Below, one piece after another: positions 3,714 through 23,800 of a DNA stretch of 64,000 bases. Source of the DNA: Owenia fusiformis (taxonomy: Eukaryota > Annelida > Polychaeta > Sabellida > Oweniidae); contig CAIIXF020000005.1 of assembly GCA_903813345.2 (NCBI GenBank), forward strand, positions 36,831,375-36,895,374, given 5' to 3'. The first letter of the stretch is position 1. Every line of letters begins with the position of its first letter. The position numbers were made by a program, and so were the translations under genes. The notes under the pieces were generated by a model that was given only the letters and a program-made list of their open reading frames with translations, was not told the origin of the DNA and ran no database searches.

Positions 3714-4916
3714 CGCTGACTTAAAGCATTTTGTTCTTAATTCATTGTTTCAGGTACACTCCCCTCCATACATATGGCAATCGCTGACTTACATACCCTG
3801 CGTGCAGAGTATAATTAAACTATACTCTGCCCAGTAGAGACCATATTACAGTTTAGTAGCCCTGCCCCCACGACGGGTACCGGTGACAGTTTGGGTAATA
3901 AATAACTTTTGACCTACGCGCTGACCTTTCTTCTACCAATCAGCGAGCTTGAAGAAACATACGCCAAATGCGTTCTAATTAAATATGCGCATGTCATTGG
4001 TCAATTCCGGGCTCAACGATGACATCAGAAGGAATGACCATATATAGAACGTCGGTCAAATTTGGCCGATGAGCACTGATTGGCGCGGTGAGTTCACAGG
4101 TTTATTTTAGTTTGAAAGAGTGAAGACGAAGCTCTCTTTTAAGAGTGAAGTCAAACGAATGCAAAGGGTATGACTTACAGCGTTTTGTTCTTAATTCATT
4201 TTTTCGGATACACCTGCTTCCATACACATGGCAATCGCTGTGATTTAAAGCGTTTTGTTCTTATTTCATTGTTTCAGATACACTCCCTACATACATATGG
4301 CAATCGCTGACTTAAATCGTTTTGTTCTCAATTCATTATTTCAGGTACACTCCCCTCCATACATATGGTAATCGCTGACTTAAATCGTTTTGTTCTTAAT
4401 TCATTGTTTCAGGTACACTCCCCCCCATACATATGGCAATCGCTGACTTAAAGCGTTTTGTTCTTAATTCATTGTTTTAGGTACACTCCCTACATACATA
4501 TGGCAATCGCTGACTTAAATCGTTTTGTTCTTAATTCATTGTTTCAGGTACACTCCCCTCCATACATATGGCAATCGCTGACTTAAAGTATTTTGTTCTT
4601 AATTCATTGTTACAGGTACACTCCCCTCCATAAATATGGCAATCGCTGACTTAAAGAGTTTTGTTCTTAATTCATTGTTTCAGGTACACTCCCATCCATA
4701 CATATGGCAATCGCTGACTTAAATCGTTTTGTTCTTAATTCATTGTTTCAGGTACACTCCCCTCCATACATATGGCAATCGCTGACTTAAATCGTTTTGT
4801 TCTTAATTCATTGTTTCAGATACACTCCCTTCCATACATATGGCAATCGCTGATTTAAAGCTTTTGTTCTTAATTCATTGTTTCAGGTACACTCCCCTCC
4901 ATACATATGGCAACCG
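3714..4916. repeat. 68-bp satellite array, interrupted once
   Basis: One unit lies at 3,714-3,781 and about eleven more at about 4,160-4,916. The unit runs CGCTGACTTAAATCGTTTTG, TTCTTAATTCATTGTTTCAG, GTACACTCCCCTCCATACAT, ATGGCAAT (68 bp; 65-68 in variants). Positions 3,800-4,155 are a different AT-rich sequence with a short hairpin (GCAGAGTATA...TATACTCTGC). The GTACACTCCCCTCCATA...GGCAA end of the unit recurs at the ends of the inverted repeat at 34.3-35.2 kb. Confidence 0.9.
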
Positions 4917-11890: not shown

Positions 11891-14800
11891 ATGATCCTGA
11901 AGAAAGGGATGCATTTGGTGATGGTCGGGATGGGGTTCCTTTGTCTCATACATGCTGAAGAGGTAAGTGTCTCGAACAGAATAGAATAACAAAATTACGT
12001 AATAAACATTCTCGTTTCTTCGTTCCTTTAGAGCCATTTTTATTTTAGAAATGACGATTTAAGGCCCGGGTTTAAGGATCAATGCCATTGTCTTAAATAG
12101 GTTCTCATAAGATAGTAAAATATCATGCAATTTCAAATTAATTTCAAAGGCAGAACTTTTTCCTATATCATAATGGTTTAAAATACTCAAAATACTTAAC
12201 ACGTTTTATCATCAAGTACCACGGTTGAAAATAGTTGCAATATCTCAAAACATATGTGCACCGTGGGGGATAGGGGATAGCGTTTCATTCCAACAGTTAT
12301 ATTGACTAGATATAGAGTATACGCAGGCAATCGATGTTCTAGAAGGGCTTAGATTTCACCAGCACGCAAGTTGGGTTATAAAGTCACAGTGGGTCAAATG
12401 GGAATGTGGGTGCAAACTGCAAACATAATCATGGACGGTTAAGAACGGGAGGTAATCACCAAATAAATAAAATCAAATGAAAGCTAGCCCTTGTTTTTTC
12501 AATTTGTAAGAACTGGTCGTTCGTTGATAAAGTGCATTGCACTCCCTTCGAACGGAACATTAACACGGTGACCAAGAGTTAACAGTGCAAATCGGCCCGG
12601 TCGTGTTTTTTTAAACTCTTTAGTCGTGTTTTGTTGAAAATTTGAGAGGTAGGTTGATAAATTTGGTCATGAAATTGCTGTCACTTGACTTTATGTAAAA
12701 GTAAGTAATTTATATTGCTTTCCATACTATATATCGTAACTTCAGGAATTCTTAAACGTGTTATTTGCACGAATCGTATGCTATAGTCTTGTTATATTGG
12801 GAAATGAGCAATTCTGTCAGTGTTATACATATTTTTGCCTGAAAATCACTTGCCTGACTTGTATTCAATGAATACATCGATTCATAAGGAAAGCATTCAC
12901 AATATGTGCGAAAATCAAAAGTTAGAAGAGCTTAAATAAGTAGCAATTGACCGAATAATATTTTTTAGATTAAACTCTTTAGACGTGTTGAAAAGATTGC
13001 GGTTAATGACGTTGACCTGTTAGTGAAACGTTCTAGACGTGTAGAGACATTGAGGTTTAACGATTTGGAAGTGGGAAACAGCACAATTAACATTATGTAT
13101 TTCCCCAAAAAATGATCACAATGTGGAAGAAGTTGTTGTCTGAGTGACACTATCTTAATTATAAATGATTAACAATAATCAAATGTACGACATAATATGT
13201 CAAGATTGATCTATGGGATCACTACCGAATTTGATACTTAAATCAAAATGGTTAGAATCAGACACGCATGGTTAATGCAAGCGAGCTTTGCCTCGTCGCT
13301 CGTCATTTTGAAAATTTGACCAGTCATATTATTTTTTAATTGCCCTGTCGCTCATTAAATGGCTCGTTGCTATTTTTGAATTTGCCTAAAATACGTTTTA
13401 AAACGTCCCTATTGGCCTTAAACTCACTTTTCCCTGTCATGAACGTAAATAAATTTATTTAAAATGAGAGGAAATGTTTAGTTTGTGATGCACTACATGT
13501 AAATGCATATATAGTGATAAAGGAATTGACAAATATTTGGAAATTACCTCCTGTTCAAGTTCCAATCATTTTTATAGATTATATTGATAGATTTAATATC
13601 ACTGAATATGATATTGCTTGTTGAGGATCACACAACATTACCATTTATCATTTATTTGAGATTTAAGCAGGGGTCCATTATTTTAAGAAATAATCGTTTT
13701 AAAAGATTTCTTGTGAATAGATAATAAATAAGTACAAAAAGCATGAATTATTATATACTAAGAGCATAATGTAAAATGTCAACTGAAAAATTAGATCAAA
13801 ATGGAATCCATGTTCACAGTGGGGGGTATAACTCATCAAATACTGGATAATTTTTTTAAAGCTTATTGTTACAGTATAATGTTTTAATTTGCTTTTTTTA
13901 GTTAGGATTATAGCATTGACCATTTATGAATTTTTGAGCACCATACAAAGTTACAGAACTTCATTTATGAACGATTTCAGCAGGGGTCTATTTTATAAAT
14001 ATTAAATATTTTTCCGGATAGTTCTTAGATGAAAAGCTAGTACATTGTTACAATTAAATTACATCATTGAGGTGTATAAATCATGAAAACAGGTTTCATC
14101 CTGGTGTCTTCAACCTAATTCGTATAACGCCACGTCACAAATGGGGGGAGGGGACATTGACTTCAACTTAGGGATCTTTATTACTTATATGATTTCAATA
14201 TTACAGTAATGTTCGGTAACATTATAAACAGGCATTAAATAAGTGTAGACTATCATAAATACGTTGACAGCAAGAAGATTTATACAATTTAAACTGTAAA
14301 ATGAGATAACAATGGGCTCTAAAATCACAATGATTGGTGTAACTAATCAAATTTTTACTTTATAAGCTTAGTATCATGTCCTAACAATTTAAATTAATTT
14401 TAAATAGTTATCCCATTGAACGAAAATCGGAGGGATATAGGGAACGGGCCTCCATCCGTCCATCCGTCCGTACGTACGTGCGCCCGTTCGGGCAATAACT
14501 CAAATACCGTTGGCCTGATTTTGTTCATATTTTGTACACATATACCCTCTGGGGGTAGAAGTTCTGATTGAAAGCCGATTTTCAAAATGGCCACTCATTT
14601 AAAATAGTGGCCATTTTAGTGCCGATTTTACAGTTATTTAGGTGCAATATGTAAAAGTGTAAAAGCAATATCTTTTAAATGAAAAAAAATAATAAAGCTA
14701 GAAATGTAGATATTAAAGAAGCACATGGCTGCCATATTGAAAAATGATGGCCTTTACTTGTTATTTTACAATTTTTGCTGTAACTCGAAAAGTAGTGGAG

Positions 14801-17800
14801 TGATTTCGTTCATATTTGGTATGTGAATACTATAAGCATGGCACACTGTCTAATGACACTTTTTGGAGAAGGCGGCCATTTTAAACAGAGCCGCCATTTT
14901 AACGTATTTTACTATAACTCAAAGTTGTGGAGCGATTTTGATCATCTCTGGTATGTGAATACTATAAACATGGCACACTGAATTTTTTGAATATCTTAAA
15001 GTGGTTCAGATTTTCATTTATTGAAGATTTAATTCAAGATTAATTCAAAAAGATTAATCTTTTGTGGATAGTTCTCGGATCAATTACTATTATTACCACC
15101 TTGTGGGGCATGTTTTAGGGGTATTAGTGCTAGTTTAGATGGCATTTATGTTACTATATCGACCTGAGCAATAATTCTAATTATTCCATAGTTAGCATGA
15201 TATTCATAGGATAACATGTCGAAATAAAAACAGTATTTTTGTAATCAGTGGTAAAATATGATATTTTTGACAAATTTTCACTTAACCATAGCATACGGTT
15301 TTTTAGCCATGACATACGACGTCGTATGCTATGGTTTATGGATTTTTGCTACTTCAGACTCAAAACGAGGCTTAGTGTAAACATCGCCGGATCGTTTGGA
15401 AAATTCGAAATAAATCACTTCATTTCCGACGATTCTGATGATGACTTTAACTATGGAATAAAAAGAACATCCTATGATTTACTCGTGATATGATTTTAAT
15501 CCACTCATGGATATTGATATCTGCACTCTCTCGCTACGCTCGCTCGTGCAGATATCATATCCATTCGTGGATAAAAATCATATCACTCATAAATCATAGG
15601 ATATCCTCTATTAACGTCATTCCTGCGGGCAATATTAAACAAATACTGGATGATCAGGAGCTGGATATGGCAGAATACCTATTCAAGAAAAAAATATTGG
15701 GCCGAGACGATATTAATTAATTTCAATAGAAAGATTGGGTTCTAGCATTGCCTCATAGGACAGTCTATTTTCATTACAACTTTTGGTCCTTTCCCTTGGC
15801 ACTAGTGCTTATATATTTCTACTAAATAAAATAATCAGGGTAAACGCTTTTCTATTACTAATTAAAAGTTATTTGGTTGTAGAGATGCTTGTAGAGCCCG
15901 TATCGCAAAAATCATATATCCTTTCACCCCACATCATATCATATCCTTTATTGATGTTAAAATCCATTTTTATAAATAGTGGGAATAAATTCCTAACTCA
16001 TCTTAGATAATGATTTAAATCCAATATTATATGTGATCAAATGATTTTTCCAAGGTTTTAAAATGTAAACAGTGCTCAGTTTCAGTGCTCAACAGGTGAA
16101 AACATATGTAGGAATATAGGCAGAAACAATTTGCAGACCAACGAAAACAAGATTGTGTTCAAAGAAAGTGAACTAAATGGAACCATTATTTGTAATCATG
16201 TTGAATGCAAAATATAGTCAGACAGAATATTTATTTTCAATTAAACAGATAAAATCAATATATCATGCTAATGACCTTTCCAAAAGCTGATCCATAAGTG
16301 GAAAATTCGTTGTTAGCTTCAAAAGTGTCAATATCTAATATTTTTCATTATTATGGACCTCTGTTAAACCCATCAATGATAAGTAGACGGTAATGTTGAC
16401 AGGTCCTCAACGGATGAAAACGTAATATGTAGGAATATATGTTTTATCATTTAAACATATCATTAACAATTGGCGGATCAACGAAAAACAAGATGATGTT
16501 AAAAGAAAGTGAACTAAATGGAACCATTATTTTTATCATTTTGAATGCAGGCGATCTTAGTTTCAATTAAACAGATAAAATCAATATGGCATTCTAATAT
16601 TAATAACCTTTCCAAAAATATCAAAATCTAATATTTTTTATATTTTTTGTGAACCCCTGTTAAACCCCTCGATAATTAATAAATAAGTTTATTGGTCTCT
16701 TAAACATCTAATGTACATCAAGATAAAATCAATATGTTATACTAGTAAACTTTCCAAAAGCCGATTAATGACTAGATAATCTGTTGTAAACTATCAAAAT
16801 CTAATATTTTTTGTTGACCCCTCCCTGTTAAACTTAAACACCTCAATAATAAGTAAACGGTAAAGTCCTCAACAGGTGAAAATGTATGTGATAATACATG
16901 TTTTATCATTTACACATATTATTTAACAATTAGCGTATCAACAAAAACAAGATGATGTTAAAAGAAAGTGAACAAAATGGAACAATTATTTCTAATCATT
17001 TTGAATGAAAAATATAATCAGACAGACGATCTTATTTTCAATTTAACAGATAAAATCAATAGGTCATGCTAATAACCTTCTCAAAAATCGATTCATGAGT
17101 AGATAATCCTTTGTAAACTTCAAAAATACCAAAATCTAATATTTTATTTTTTGTGGACCCCTGTCAAACCCCTTAATAATAAGTAAATGGTAATGTTGAC
17201 AAGTGCTCAACATGTGAAAACGTATGTAGGAATATATGTTTTATCATTTAAACATATCAAAACAACTGGCGGATCAACAAAATTAAGATGATGTTAAAAG
17301 AAAGTGAACTAAATGGAACAATTAATTTTAATCATTTTAAATGCAAAATATAGTCAGACAGGTGATCTTATTTTCAATTAAACAGATAAAATCAATATGT
17401 CATGCTAATAACCTTCCCAAAAACCGATTCATAAGTAGATAATCTGTTGTAAACTTCAAAAATATCAAAATCTAATATTTTTTATTTTTTTGTGGACCCC
17501 TGTTAAATCCCTCAATAATAAGTAAATAGTAATGTTGACAAGTGCTCAACAAGTGAAAACGTATGCAGGAATATGTGTTTTATCATCTAAACTCATCAAA
17601 ACAATTGGAGGATGAACAGGAGGAAACAGCTTAATTAAGGCTTATCTGAGAAATTCCATTATCACTAATAGGTAGTAAGCTAGCACCCAAAAATGTATTA
17701 GTTCGTGAACAAATTGAAATTACTTGTTTCTTATGTATTTTTATGTGATACTTCAGAAAATGTTTGTCTGACGCGCCATATCCGGGGCGAAAGTTGTCAA

Positions 17801-20800
17801 ATTGGCATTTTCTACCCTAAAATGGAAAATTACAGGGGTACTTTATCATCATTGAATAAATCATTCAGTTGGTCTTCAATCATCATAATAATTTTATGGG
17901 GAGTTGATTGGATCATGCTGAGGTAGTATGTTAAGTTTCAATCACCTGTCACTCATGGTTGCCATGGAAACCACAATTTTCATTGAAAAATCCTTAATTT
18001 TGGCAAAATCTGTACAGGTACATAATATAGAATGTGGATTATTTTTCAAATCAACAGATATAAGAATATTGTAGCACACCCAAAAATTGCCAGGGAAGTT
18101 CAAGAATTTGTTTAAGCATAAAGGATATTGCAATTTATATAATTGGTAAGTCTCAAAGACCATACTACTACATAAGTGATCAAAAGTGGGCGTCGCCCCC
18201 ATAATAGTAAATGATGACCATTCTCTGAAAAGACAGAGTTTAACTTGACTTTTGAGATACATTTATATTGAAGTTCTTTGAATATACCTAATATCATGCA
18301 TTTCTGGTAAATAATGTACATATAAGTGTAAAAGTTGTTGCAAGGGGAGTGGGGGGGGGGTGGTAGTAACAGAATTTGGAGGGGGCAGAGCTAATCAGCC
18401 TTAGTTAGTATAATTCTCATTTATATAGTTCTGGATTTTCAAAGGTTAAATCTTCTGGGTCTTTTTCATTTTCATTTCAATAGGGCCTATATAGGTACTA
18501 CATTTTAATTTTACATGATTGGTGTCAAAGACCATACCATTACATAAGTGATCAAAAGTAGGCATCATCACCTTCATAATAGCAGATGATTACCATTCTC
18601 TATCAATACAGGGTTTAAGAAGAATTTCGATATATATATATTTATCATTTATACTTCTTTGATTATACTTAATATCAACCATTTCAGGTAAATAACAGGT
18701 AAACTACTTTATAGTTGATGTAATACTTTGATATTTGAATTAAACCAGGCTTATATGGCATATACCATCGCTCGATACTGACCAGTGACACCTGAGTTTT
18801 ATAGTTATTGCATGAGAGGCAGCTTGAGAGAGGGGGGGGGACTAATAATAGAAACTGGAAGGGGGCAGAGCTAATCAGCTTCAAGTATAAATCTAGTAGT
18901 AAAACTACTTCGTTCTGGATTTATTAAGGAACATGTACATCTTCTAGGTCTTCTTCATATTCATCTCAATATATAGGATATTACAATAAACATGATAGGT
19001 AAGTGTCCAAGACCAAACAATTACATAAGTGATCAAAAGTGGGAATCACCCCAACAACAGTATATGGTTCATTCTCTACAAACAGAGGTCAACTTAAGTT
19101 GTGAGATCATCCAGTGATCTCCCCAGGATTTCTTCTCGGGTGGGTACAAAATTTTCATTTTCACAATTCAGACCAAAATTGGTCAAAATATGATTTTTCT
19201 CACTTTCAAGTGGGTGCATATGGATTTTCAGGTGGGTGCAAACCTATTTTCAAAATCTCAGGTGGGTGCTGCACCCACTTGCTTTAATGCTTGGAAGATC
19301 ACGGTCATCTATACGTCATCTATACTTCTATTATTTAAGAAATATAGACTGAAGAGCAGGTGTTATATTGACAAATACACTCCACATGGCTAGGCAAGGG
19401 AGTGAGGGGTTCGAAAGCTTTTGTACCTAGCCCTAAGGGGTCATTGTCAATATCACGCCTGCTCTGAGGTATATATTACAATTCAAACATGAAAACTCCC
19501 CAAAATTTTTTGAATATTCAACTTATGGTCTGCCATTACTACAGCCCTCTTGATGTCACACATTACTCGTATTACCAAGGGAAGTGTTGACGAATATACC
19601 CCGGGTAAAATGTTGATATAGAAGGCGTGAATACAGTCATGTTCTAATATAATTTATATAAAACCATTTCTCATAAATATGTTTAGCAGTATAGTTTTTA
19701 CGTGGGGTGAGAGTGGGGAAGTGGTTACCTGGGAGGGAGCTCTACTCCCTCCTAATTATTCTGTTACTACTCCCATCTAGGGCCTGGCATAATATATGCA
19801 GCCTTCATATCTTCCCTAGATGGAGTAAGTGCCATGCTTTGAAGGGGCAGGATAGCACATTTTAAAAAGATGGAGCACCATATTGAGTCCCAGCTGAACG
19901 ACTCTCAAATCTGCAAGTGTTTAGTGGTATTTTCTCTTAAGAGATTGTTGATATATCAATATCATGCGATAAATCAAAAGAATGAAAATGATCAGACTAT
20001 GAGAAGGCTCATCTATAGTTGTTATTGTATTGCCATCACTAGACACTCTGATACTCATAGCATCTTTCTGTCTCACCTGAAGGGCTGGGAAGAAATAAAA
20101 TGTCATGGTTTATCATGAGGATCCCTTGAAAGGATATGGCATTTCCCACCTGCTACACAGTAGATTTTTTCTTGGCACATTCTGGTCTTATCATTCAATT
20201 AACTGAACTGGTATAGTTTCTTCTTGATTGCATCCTTATTCATGAACTCATTCCAATCTTAAGGGACTCGTGTATTTTACATTTGATAAGGTGAGGTGCC
20301 ACCACCCTCTTCTTCTCCTATCAGGTTCGTTTATAGAATTTTGGATTTAATTGTCACATCATCACTCTGCTGTTAGAAGTATCTTGAAAAACATGTATTT
20401 TCTGCCAGCTCCAGAAACAAAACGAATAAAGCAAAGTGTAGTGCTGGACAAACAAAGAAGACTGATTAATATAAAAAAAAAATTTATGTTAAGCCACAAT
20501 GCCTTACAACAGCAAAACCAGATAAACCAATTGAAATTGAAGTTTAGACCCCATACTAAAACAATCAAATACTATGAAGGAATCGACATCAGTCTTCTTC
20601 CACCTTGTCAAGAGCTTACTACAAAGCACTTATCATGCATATGGCCCATATTGTAAACCCTGACACTCCAGCAGAAGATGGACATGGATGGAAACTGAAT
20701 GACTCCACCATTGCATTGGGTATTGACTGGTATTCTCATACAAATGATTGTTGATATAGCACCAGATGATGAATCAGAAAGACTCCAGAAGATGTATCTT

Positions 20801-23800
20801 ATGAAATCCAGGACTCTGAAGATGAAATTGATACTTAATGCTGACTTGTTCCCCCACACCTCCAAATTCTGTTACTACCCCCATCCCATACAATAATTAT
20901 ATACAGTATATTGAGAAAACTAAGAAGACCCAGAAAATACTCTATGAAGAAGTCCAAAAGAAAGAATTTATACTTAAGGCTGATTAACTCTGCCCCCTCC
21001 CAATACTGTTAACCCCACTCCTCCTCATCCAATAACCATTGCACTGAGTTGTACATTATTTACCAGAAAATATAAAGTATAATCAAAGAAGTCCAATGTA
21101 AATGTATCTCAAGTCAAGTTTAACTCTGTTTTTATAGAGAATAGCAATCATCAACTCGACGCCCACTTTTGATTACTTGTGTAATAGTATGTTCTTTGAC
21201 ACTGACCAATCATGTAAGTTGTAATATCCCATATATTGAGATGAATATGAAGAAGATCCAGAAGATGTACCCCATGAAATCCAGATATATGTAGATGAGA
21301 TTTATATTTAAGGCTGATTAGCTCTGCCTCCTCCCAATTCCTTTACTACCCCCCCCCCTCTGTACCACCCCCCCCCCTTGCAATAACTATGACACTTGGA
21401 CTTACATTATTTACCAGAAATGCTTGATATAAAATATAATCAAATAAGTCTAGTGTAAATGTATCTCAAAAGTCAAGTTAAACTCTGTTTTTATAGAGTA
21501 TAGCAATCATCTACTATTATGGGGGCGATGCCCACTTTTGATCACTCATGTAATTGTATGTTCTTTGACACTGACCAATCATGTAAATTGCAATATCCTT
21601 TATATTTAAAAAGATGTTTGAACTGTACTGGTTATTTTGAGTGTGCTAAAATGTGCTGATATGTATTGATTCAAAAAATAATCCATATTCTACATGATGT
21701 TCATGTTCAGGTTTTGCAAAATTAAGGATATTTTGAATGAAAATTGTGGTTTCCATGACAACCATGAGTGACAGAGCATTGAAATTTTACATACTACCTC
21801 AGCATGATCCAATCAAATCCCCATAAAATTATTATGATGATTGAAGACTAACAGAACGATTTATTCAATGATGATAAAGTACCCCCTGTAATTTTCCATT
21901 TTAGGGTCGAAAACCCCATTTTGACAATTTTCGCCCCGGATATGGCGTGTCAGACAAACATTTTCTGAATTATCACATAAAAATACATAAGATACAAGTA
22001 ATTTCAATTTGTTCACGAACTAATACATTTTTGGGTGCTAGCTTACTACCTATAATATATGATCACCTAATGTAAGGAATAACTCCACCGTTATTAAAAT
22101 CGTATGCTCAATATCTATTAGGTTTTCCTCAGGATTTTTAACAATTTGATTCGATGTTATTCCCTAATTCGCCTCACACAATGCAATAGAATTTCAATTT
22201 TAATTTTCAAATTGCAATAGGTAAAAAACGCTACATATGCTGCTATTGTTCTATGAGTGAACTATGAACTGTAGTGTAACATAGTTTTCTAGCGAATTAA
22301 ATTACAACATCTGTTGATCTTGTTAAATCATATATCTGTCTTTTTTATTTATTCATATCTTGACTACAAATTACAATAAACGGGTGACACATAATGTATA
22401 TTCCCGTGTTTAGTACTAATACGATTATTTTCAGAAGCACAGACAAATTATTAAGCAACAAAACATGGTCAATGTGAACAATATTACAAGACAATTCAAA
22501 GTCGTTAATTTTATCACGTCTAAAACGTTATCTTTACAATTCCAAAACGTTAACATGCTTATTATAAGACACGTCCATGACGTTATATTGTCCCTTCTCC
22601 ATAGTTAACTCCACTTTCTACATTTACGGTCATTTATGACAATTTAAAGATAAATACAGTTAAAATATTTACACGATCTTTAGAGTAGTGAATATTATTC
22701 CACGTTGTTGAATGGATTGTCTGTTTAAACTTGATTAAATAACACTAAATGCAAATTAAGTACATATTTCTGGCACTTTTGGTATATAATTGCGATTGAT
22801 ATGAAGTATGATGGATTTATCCCCAAAATAGATTCGTTGGTATGAAGAAGAACATCTTAGGTAGAAGTCAAGATATGTAAGTTTGTAAAATATAGAATAT
22901 TCTTACCATTTTGCTCCATTCTATCGAATGTCGCATCCCATGTTCTTACAAAACACGACTAAAGAGTTTAAAAAAACACGACCGGGCCGATTTGCACTGT
23001 TAACTCTTGGTCACCGTGATTAACATCTCAGAATTCGAAATGTAACAGGTATAAGAGATCTGATTCCTTCAGCTGTTCTAGAAAATCAAGTATGGATACA
23101 TGGTTTTTGTTGATCTTGATGTCAGGTGCTTTACAAACTCAAAGACACCGCATATATACCCAAGGCTCCCAAGCAGCGTTGAATTCGGTTTTACCGTCAC
23201 TGCATGTTTAAGGTGGTGTAAAGGTCTACGGTATTACAGCGACCGCAATGATGTCAACATAAGTTCAGTTTCATCTATTTTTACTATCTAAGAACTATTT
23301 TTGAATAGCACGACCAGATTTTATAAACATGTCCGATTAATTAGTGTCTAACCAGTGGTCGGTGTGGTAAGAGACTAGAGAGTAGTACCTTGCACGGTTG
23401 GCACCTTGACCTAACGTAGACATACCACCATCTGCTAGAACATTCTTCTGTTATTGTTTACATCCGTAGCTTCAACAACAAAGTAATATAATATGATCAT
23501 TGCAGTAATCAAAAACCACAAGAGCTGCCTACTAACATGTTCATACGTGGAATATATCACTACAGGCAGAATTACTCTCATTTAAATATCAAGCCCGGTG
23601 TTAATTTATTTCGATTAATTTATTTCGATTAGTTTTGTATAACGCATGGAAGCTAACTTTAAAAAGTGAGCAATGTCATTAGTATTGTGATAATAACGTC
23701 CCTTATACCTATTTATTACAGGTCGTGTAGACCATTGTTGCCCGATTTATAGCAAAAACATTGACTTATGTACGTTGGTGATGATGCGCCTTTTTAATAG

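Follow-up and report, generated by a model that had tools for sequence, protein, structure and literature searches.

In the genome of the annelid Owenia fusiformis (assembly GCA_903813345.2), a stretch of 64,000 nucleotides on contig CAIIXF020000005.1 (C5:36831375-36895374), hereafter the window, contains at positions 12559-23023 a transposon bounded by terminal inverted repeats (TIRs). What lies there is a non-coding TIR transposon of 1.9 kb which was inserted at ATTAA with a 5-bp target-site duplication and was later enlarged by two nested repeats. Considered together with its relatives in the same genome, it is probably a derivative moved in trans by a giant transposase of about 1,500 aa. 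A preliminary description of the window, made from the sequence alone, had interpreted the same feature as a large carrier mobilised possibly by a transposase of the RAG/Transib type.

Structure of the window element

The ends of the element are identical inverted 71-mers (100%) which start with CACGGTG and open with CACGGTGACCAAGAG, the exact TIR of the family being CACGGTGACCAAGAGTTAAC, and both are flanked by ATTAA, exactly as previously described. The statement that no transposase is visible was also right, because the longest listed stop-to-stop frame between positions 12000 and 23600 has 106 aa and the joined interior frames of at least 70 aa gave no match to Pfam with an E-value of 0.1 or below. 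A search for a paralogous empty site of the insertion returned two matches, both of them the window's own flanks. The features of the element, in window positions, are as follows.

12559-12563, no strand: left target-site duplication ATTAA (flank read and copy comparison)
12564-12634, + strand: left 71-bp TIR, CACGGTGACCAAGAGTTAACAG... (inverted-pair detection; first 37 bp repeated genome-wide)
12564-13513, + strand: left part of the 1.9-kb non-autonomous element (96-99% over about 940-960 bp, 26 copies printed for that side)
13512-13513, no strand: TA, left boundary of nested repeat A (five printed 1.9-kb copies uninterrupted there)
13514-17665, no strand: nested repeat A, 4.15 kb, rich in tandem repeats (repeated genome-wide; inverted ends)
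17668-22053, no strand: nested repeat B, 4.4 kb (inverted repeats of about 0.9 kb, 84%; repeated genome-wide)
22055-23018, + strand: right part of the 1.9-kb element, 964 bp (aligned to 1.9-kb copies)
22948-23018, - strand: right 71-bp TIR, perfect inverted copy (inverted-pair detection)
23019-23023, no strand: right target-site duplication ATTAA (flank read and copy comparison)

Nested repeats within the element

Over its first ~955 and last 964 bp the window copy can be aligned with the 1.9-kb class of its family, and the 8.5 kb between 12564-13513 and 22055-23018 consists of two other repeats. Repeat A has the inverted ends GTGATAAAGGAATT and GTGATAATGGAATT with TA on each side (read by eye), and its first 305 bp gave 39 other near-full-length matches with 95-98% identity among the 40 scored of 191 candidates. 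Repeat B, which ends in ATAGGTAGTAAGCTAGC and possesses the ~0.9-kb inverted repeats listed above, behaved similarly: its last 298 bp gave 39 other near-full-length matches (94-98%) among the 40 scored of 293 candidates, three inverted pairs of matches having outer spans of 4.4, 4.6 and 5.1 kb. The queries for both repeats begin or end at a junction and so demonstrate repetition, not the boundary; the boundary of the repeats was placed on account of their inverted ends and because five printed 1.9-kb copies pass uninterrupted through the insertion junction.

Since the interior of the window element matches none of the 39 other family entries compared and its two repeats are found repeated elsewhere, the 10.45-kb size is due to later insertion and not to cargo. 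That a true large carrier of 10.45 kb moved whole, as the preliminary description had it, is hardly credible. The outer TIRs do not differ and are flanked by a perfect duplication, as such a carrier could also show, but the interior is missing from the other entries and consists of two repeats with ends of their own and many copies elsewhere, and uninterrupted 1.9-kb copies exist at that very point.

Three other long copies (L018, L019 and L021+L022) have interiors that are largely private and lie at different points of the element. L021+L022 (C8:30424972-30436670) holds a nested element of 9.2 kb, whose inverted repeats measure 1.35 kb (98%) and whose ends are AACAGGATCTTAAGAGG, apparently at a TTAA target (by eye).

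The family across the genome

In the genome searched (498 Mb, 525 contigs), the first 37 bp of the TIR were found with up to 3 mismatches at 63 + 58 places, and a one-base variant of the query at 63 + 60 places; the backwards pattern gave 0 + 0 for the former and 0 for the latter. The TIR pair is not a chance finding because 63 + 58 ends stand against 0 + 0 for the backwards pattern and paired ends delimit elements with a duplication. Other genomic copies, for which a search had been advised in the preliminary description, are thus represented by 121-123 ends.

An exact 5-bp duplication flanks 44 of the 51 complete copies read, four copies have 6 bp and three have none. The 51 copies include a tandem pair in L040, one member of which was dropped, leaving 43 duplications for the analysis of composition; these are 79% AT as compared with 65% in the window. 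The duplications vary in sequence, therefore the 5-bp length is real and does not result from TTAA targeting. A 4-bp TTAA duplication of the piggyBac/Kolobok type was considered for the window copy and rejected, as other copies have 5 bp without TTAA. Inverted ends, a duplication and many copies at differing sites, all of which define a non-autonomous TIR DNA transposon, are found in this family.

The sizes of the copies read are mostly near 1.9 or 2.3 kb. The 1.9-kb class is regarded as young because its mean p-distance is 1.3% (13 sequences including the window copy, 78 pairs), the value for the window copy being 1.2%. Recent mobilisation of a non-autonomous element, as suggested earlier, is supported by the perfect TIRs, the young family and the duplications in 44 of 51 copies; that it took place in trans we infer.

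None of the fetched family copies has a long transposase frame. L018, L019, L020, L021+L022 and L041 were examined as candidate autonomous elements and rejected, their longest frames being 145-305 aa and their interiors largely unshared; the longest frames of L020 and L041 resemble non-LTR fragments (by eye). In L041 (C9:29984998-29991493) the family copy is broken by two frames of 292 and 295 aa, which look like those of a non-LTR retrotransposon (by eye). L020 (C8:24472920-24478152), which bears a 305-aa frame labelled by eye as reverse-transcriptase-like, and L040 (C6:37764274-37768581) contain neighbouring copies with identical flanks, as if the insertion site had been tandemly duplicated locally. 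L042 (C1:27074900-27078415), flanked by the 5-bp duplication AATGA, is a miniature family member of 336 bp.

Zinc-finger exon and a sister TIR family

A member of the window family, L016, retains a frame with a C2H2 finger (CHVCAFKSADKKTFLEHYEKVHP). When this exon was used as a query at E 0.01, it was found in 31 of the 38 loci that do not belong to the 1.9-kb class and in none of the 12 that do, where the 38 loci include the window copy, which lacks the exon, and the query locus is itself a family member. The diverged exon of L063, used in the same way, was found in 22 of the 38. The exon is located about 650 bp to the inner side of one TIR, reading towards the interior of the element. The left part of the window element (12564-13513) corresponds to the side away from the exon in the 2.3-kb relatives; the exon is missing from the right part (22055-23018), on which side it sits further inward in those relatives.

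The genome-wide search with the zinc-finger exon gave 149 matches, and 54 of the best 58 lie no more than 4 kb inward of a listed TIR end, 23 of them belonging to the window family and 31 to a sister family. The best 58 include the query's own locus and split matches, the L063 locus is among the four remaining matches, and the sequence lying within this distance of the listed ends makes up no more than 0.16% of the genome. The sister family ends in CACGGTGTCCGATACTACCC (CACGGTGTCCGATAC...), with 91 ends listed and 0 in the reversed control. Of 60 positions compared, its TIR shares 40 with that of the window family (33 of 53 when the heptamer is left out), and none of 20,000 shuffles was as good.

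By type, the zinc-finger exon resembles exon 1 of genes whose product is about 1,500 aa long, the similarity to the gene loci being 35% at C5:40974122 (E 1.9e-11) and 32% at C5:4850227 (E 4.8e-6).

Coding relatives and the giant protein

In L063 the zinc-finger exon type precedes a second block, which gave 71 matches in the genome and led to frames of 1467 aa in L064 and 1438 aa in L065, and later to one of 1221 aa in L077. A conserved block of the protein has the pattern 'MRYS..FW....LFHGKF'. The hmmscan search of L064 and L065 reported C2H2-like/SUZ12-like regions, YqaJ, a weak NifW match and no RING domain, and the Pfam YqaJ model (PF09588) matched L064 (9e-6), L065 (1.3e-8) and L068 (1e-5). 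In Chapaev transposases a Chapa zinc finger occurs with or without RING.

The C-terminal half is characterized by the motifs DLDR, DGQW, DxxHLLxNxR and SETFF. It is conserved in L064, L065, L068, L069 and L070, in all of which D, H, N and R of DxxH...N.R and the E of the SETFF-like motif are invariant; in the set where L077 replaces L070, DGQ is invariant, as is an R before it, which is preceded by D in four sequences and by E in one. The exons for this C-terminal alignment were joined by hand. A search of the genome with the C-terminal half gave 10 matches, which together with the N-terminal block amount to eight gene loci, six of them read. Judging by these motifs, the C-terminal half would be a diverged RNase H/DDE core. 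Against Pfam, NCBIfam and the PDB it gave no match taken as a real relative beyond a weak one to PF21787, the stray matches being BRE1 (0.0086), FlgH (0.0044), UBN_AB (0.0076) and hexokinase (1.3); viral contigs gave 22 pattern matches, of which 0 were confirmed. The match to PF21787 (TNP-like_RNaseH_N, an RNase H N-domain of the P-element type), the sole hint of the ancestry of the giant protein, was obtained for the DGQW region of L069 with an E-value of 0.0022 for the frame and 0.0011 for the segment. It is sub-threshold and occurs in one of five segments (18.7 bits with a cut-off of 24.6).

One of the coding loci is bounded by TIRs. L068 + L071 (C6:5362210-5371450, 9.2 kb) has the TIRs CACTGTGGCTAGTCGATC, 63 bp long and 87% identical, with CACTGTG ends and with TTTAA (5 bp) duplicated on both sides, and its interior contains the later stretches of the protein including YqaJ, DGQW, HHLLTN and SETFF. 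L066 and L067, copies of a related family which are 96.5% identical to each other over two long pieces, have the same ends CACTGTGGCTAGTCGATC and the N-terminal frame only, their duplications being TAGTA (5 bp) and TTTATA (6 bp). Both match just the two sides of L068 + L071, as internal-deletion derivatives would.

The frames of L064 (C5:4843600-4852800), L065 (C11:10093500-10102500) and L077 (C11:19848200-19856600) are uninterrupted. No TIR was detected in what was read of these loci, and the protein searches showed no almost identical second copy. L077 differs from the others in having E instead of D in front of the conserved R, and YqaJ was not called in it. These three are candidate host (domesticated) genes.

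Proposed origin and mobilisation of the element

The window element would be an internal-deletion derivative of a large DNA transposon with a multi-exon gene. The encoded transposase, about 1,500 aa long, would consist of an N-terminal C2H2 finger, the conserved block, a YqaJ-type nuclease and the C-terminal RNase H/DDE core. Such a protein would bind the CACnGTG ends, cut at the tips of the TIRs and join them to AT-rich target DNA with a stagger of 5 bp. We would guess that the zinc finger contributes to the recognition of the ends and that the YqaJ domain processes DNA ends. Copies that lost the gene, such as the window copy, would have been moved in trans.

A number of observations weigh against this explanation. 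TIRs with duplications were found at one of the six coding loci read, the other five having none within the stretches fetched, and no element that is both coding and bounded by the window's own TIR was found among the copies read; the window family's own coding element may be absent, lie in a gap or be situated at an unread end. The window family is linked to the gene by a zinc-finger similarity of 32-35% (E 1.9e-11 and 4.8e-6) and is joined to L068 + L071 solely through L063/L064. The N-terminal frame of L068 + L071 matches none of L001-L062, and its TIR shares with the window TIR the heptamer only, with 18 of 53 positions identical outside it and 2,678 of 20,000 shuffles as good. The link from the window family to the giant protein is a chain of homology. 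As to the protein, YqaJ was called in three of the five relatives scanned (with E up to 0.1, not in the frames of L069 and L077), the best PDB match of the C-terminal profile is the ubiquitin ligase BRE1 (E 0.0086), and the DDE reading rests on motif conservation, with a transposase RNase H model matched below cut-off by one of five segments. The first two acidic residues are about 52 apart in L064 as compared with 73 in the P transposase (D230 and D303; PMC8230255).

It is improbable that the zinc-finger exon was a passenger captured early by a TIR family with some other, real transposase. The exon is the sole coding remnant seen in the family, and the later exons of the coding relatives match neither L001-L062 nor the window element, which speaks for a passenger. 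Its position inside one TIR and its inward reading, however, are those of a first exon, two sister TIR families share it, and homologous exons stand first in a type of gene which in one case lies within TIRs and a 5-bp duplication.

Comparison with known transposons

Ds-like and MITE-like internal-deletion derivatives resemble the elements described here in having shared ends, a deleted gene, many copies and movement in trans; they differ in that here about 950 bp are kept on each side and the window copy also carries nested repeats.

P elements have an 8-bp duplication, and the DxxH..N.R motif followed by a late E..FF motif is reminiscent of them. A rival view, compatible with mobilisation by the giant protein, is that the coding relatives are an outlying P-element/THAP9 branch and not a new superfamily. 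The similar order of the acidic motifs and the sub-threshold match of L069 speak for it, but that match is restricted to one of five segments, the duplication is 5 bp instead of 8, the PDB matches include no transposase chain, and no THAP domain was found either in L065 with its N-terminus and the L064 long frame at E up to 1 or in the N-terminal frames of L016, L063 and L068. The C2H2 finger, the fused YqaJ domain and the closer spacing of the first two acidic residues are further differences, and this placement is considered unlikely, without being far-fetched.

ISL2EU of the PHIS superfamily shares the YqaJ exonuclease domain, present here in L064, L065 and L068. According to PMC4482050, its YqaJ domain belongs to a second protein beside a THAP/HTH/DDE transposase, the TIRs usually start with GG and the duplication is AT; here there is one large protein with CACnGTG ends and a 5-bp duplication, and neither an AT duplication nor GG ends. 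Duplications of 5-8 bp are given for hAT in the same text, and the domain scans of the coding relatives reported no hAT transposase model. As the sole transposase match is sub-threshold, we classify the window element no further than as a non-autonomous TIR DNA transposon. The coding relatives are placed in an unassigned group with P-like hints.

The question of RAG/Transib ancestry

Transib prefers GC-rich target sites. The window family shares with Transib and RAG-like (ProtoRAG) elements the CAC start of the TIR and the 5-bp duplication; it differs from them in its AT-rich targets and the lack of an A-rich block after the heptamer, and the coding relatives differ in a protein with YqaJ and C2H2 domains and no RAG1/Transib-type match. 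L064, L065, L077 and the profiles A1 and A2 found no RAG1 or transposase chain in the PDB at E up to 5-10, a test covering the sister-family relatives and not the window family's own missing gene. In a control with the same library, the RAG1 core found 6b40 RAG1L (3e-69) and 6pqn (0.0032), a 'DNA-mediated transposase' which we take to be Transib. The PF12940 RAG1 model and the RAG1 core gave 0 matches in the genome, where no positive control rang and absence is accordingly not demonstrated. Protostome RAG-like elements have a 5-bp duplication and the TIR consensus CACTWMCAAACKTYKBB with AAA at positions 8-10 (PMC7204232). The window TIR agrees with this consensus at 7 of 17 positions and lacks the AAA, which speaks against the link; the TIR of L068 + L071 agrees at 9 of 17.

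That a Transib/RAG-like or Chapaev transposase moves the family and the zinc-finger gene is unrelated is quite improbable. Such a mover would fit the CAC ends, the heptamer CACGGTG and the 5-bp duplications, the latter known from protostome RAG-like elements, and the genome was searched with RAG1 queries, which took in no protein of Transib or of Chapaev, the two being grouped together in PMC4411706. On the other side are the low agreement of the TIR, the empty result of the RAG1 queries with the limit given above, the AT-rich targets as opposed to the GC-rich preference of Transib, and the residual exon of the family, which belongs to another protein. The RAG/Transib-type mover put forward earlier is thus not supported, the family keeping an exon of a different giant protein, one coding relative of which is TIR-bounded. 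Autonomous relatives with another transposase class had been named as evidence against such a link, and by this test it is disfavoured, although the coding relative found is from a sister family and not the window's own. The features shared with RAG/Transib, namely the CAC start and the 5-bp duplication, are real, and convergence may account for them.

Elsewhere in the window, at positions 4171-4913, there is a tandem array with a 68-bp unit (10.9 copies, 91% matches).

Implications

The coding relatives and the window family could tentatively be seen as an undescribed animal cut-and-paste superfamily with a giant protein combining C2H2, YqaJ and a diverged DDE core, which converged on the signature of CACnGTG ends and a 5-bp duplication and whose long intact TIR-less genes maybe serve the host; we regard this as possible and would not press it. 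Heptamer-like CAC..GTG ends with a 5-bp duplication are taken as a sign of RAG/Transib ancestry. In the present case this signature accompanies what is apparently quite a different protein, therefore the signature alone would not be diagnostic of the RAG/Transib lineage. If the giant protein is the transposase, a DNA-end nuclease (YqaJ) and a DDE core would be united in one chain, which raises the question of how broken ends are processed. Should the long intact copies in which no TIRs were detected be genes of the host, they would be candidates for domestication.

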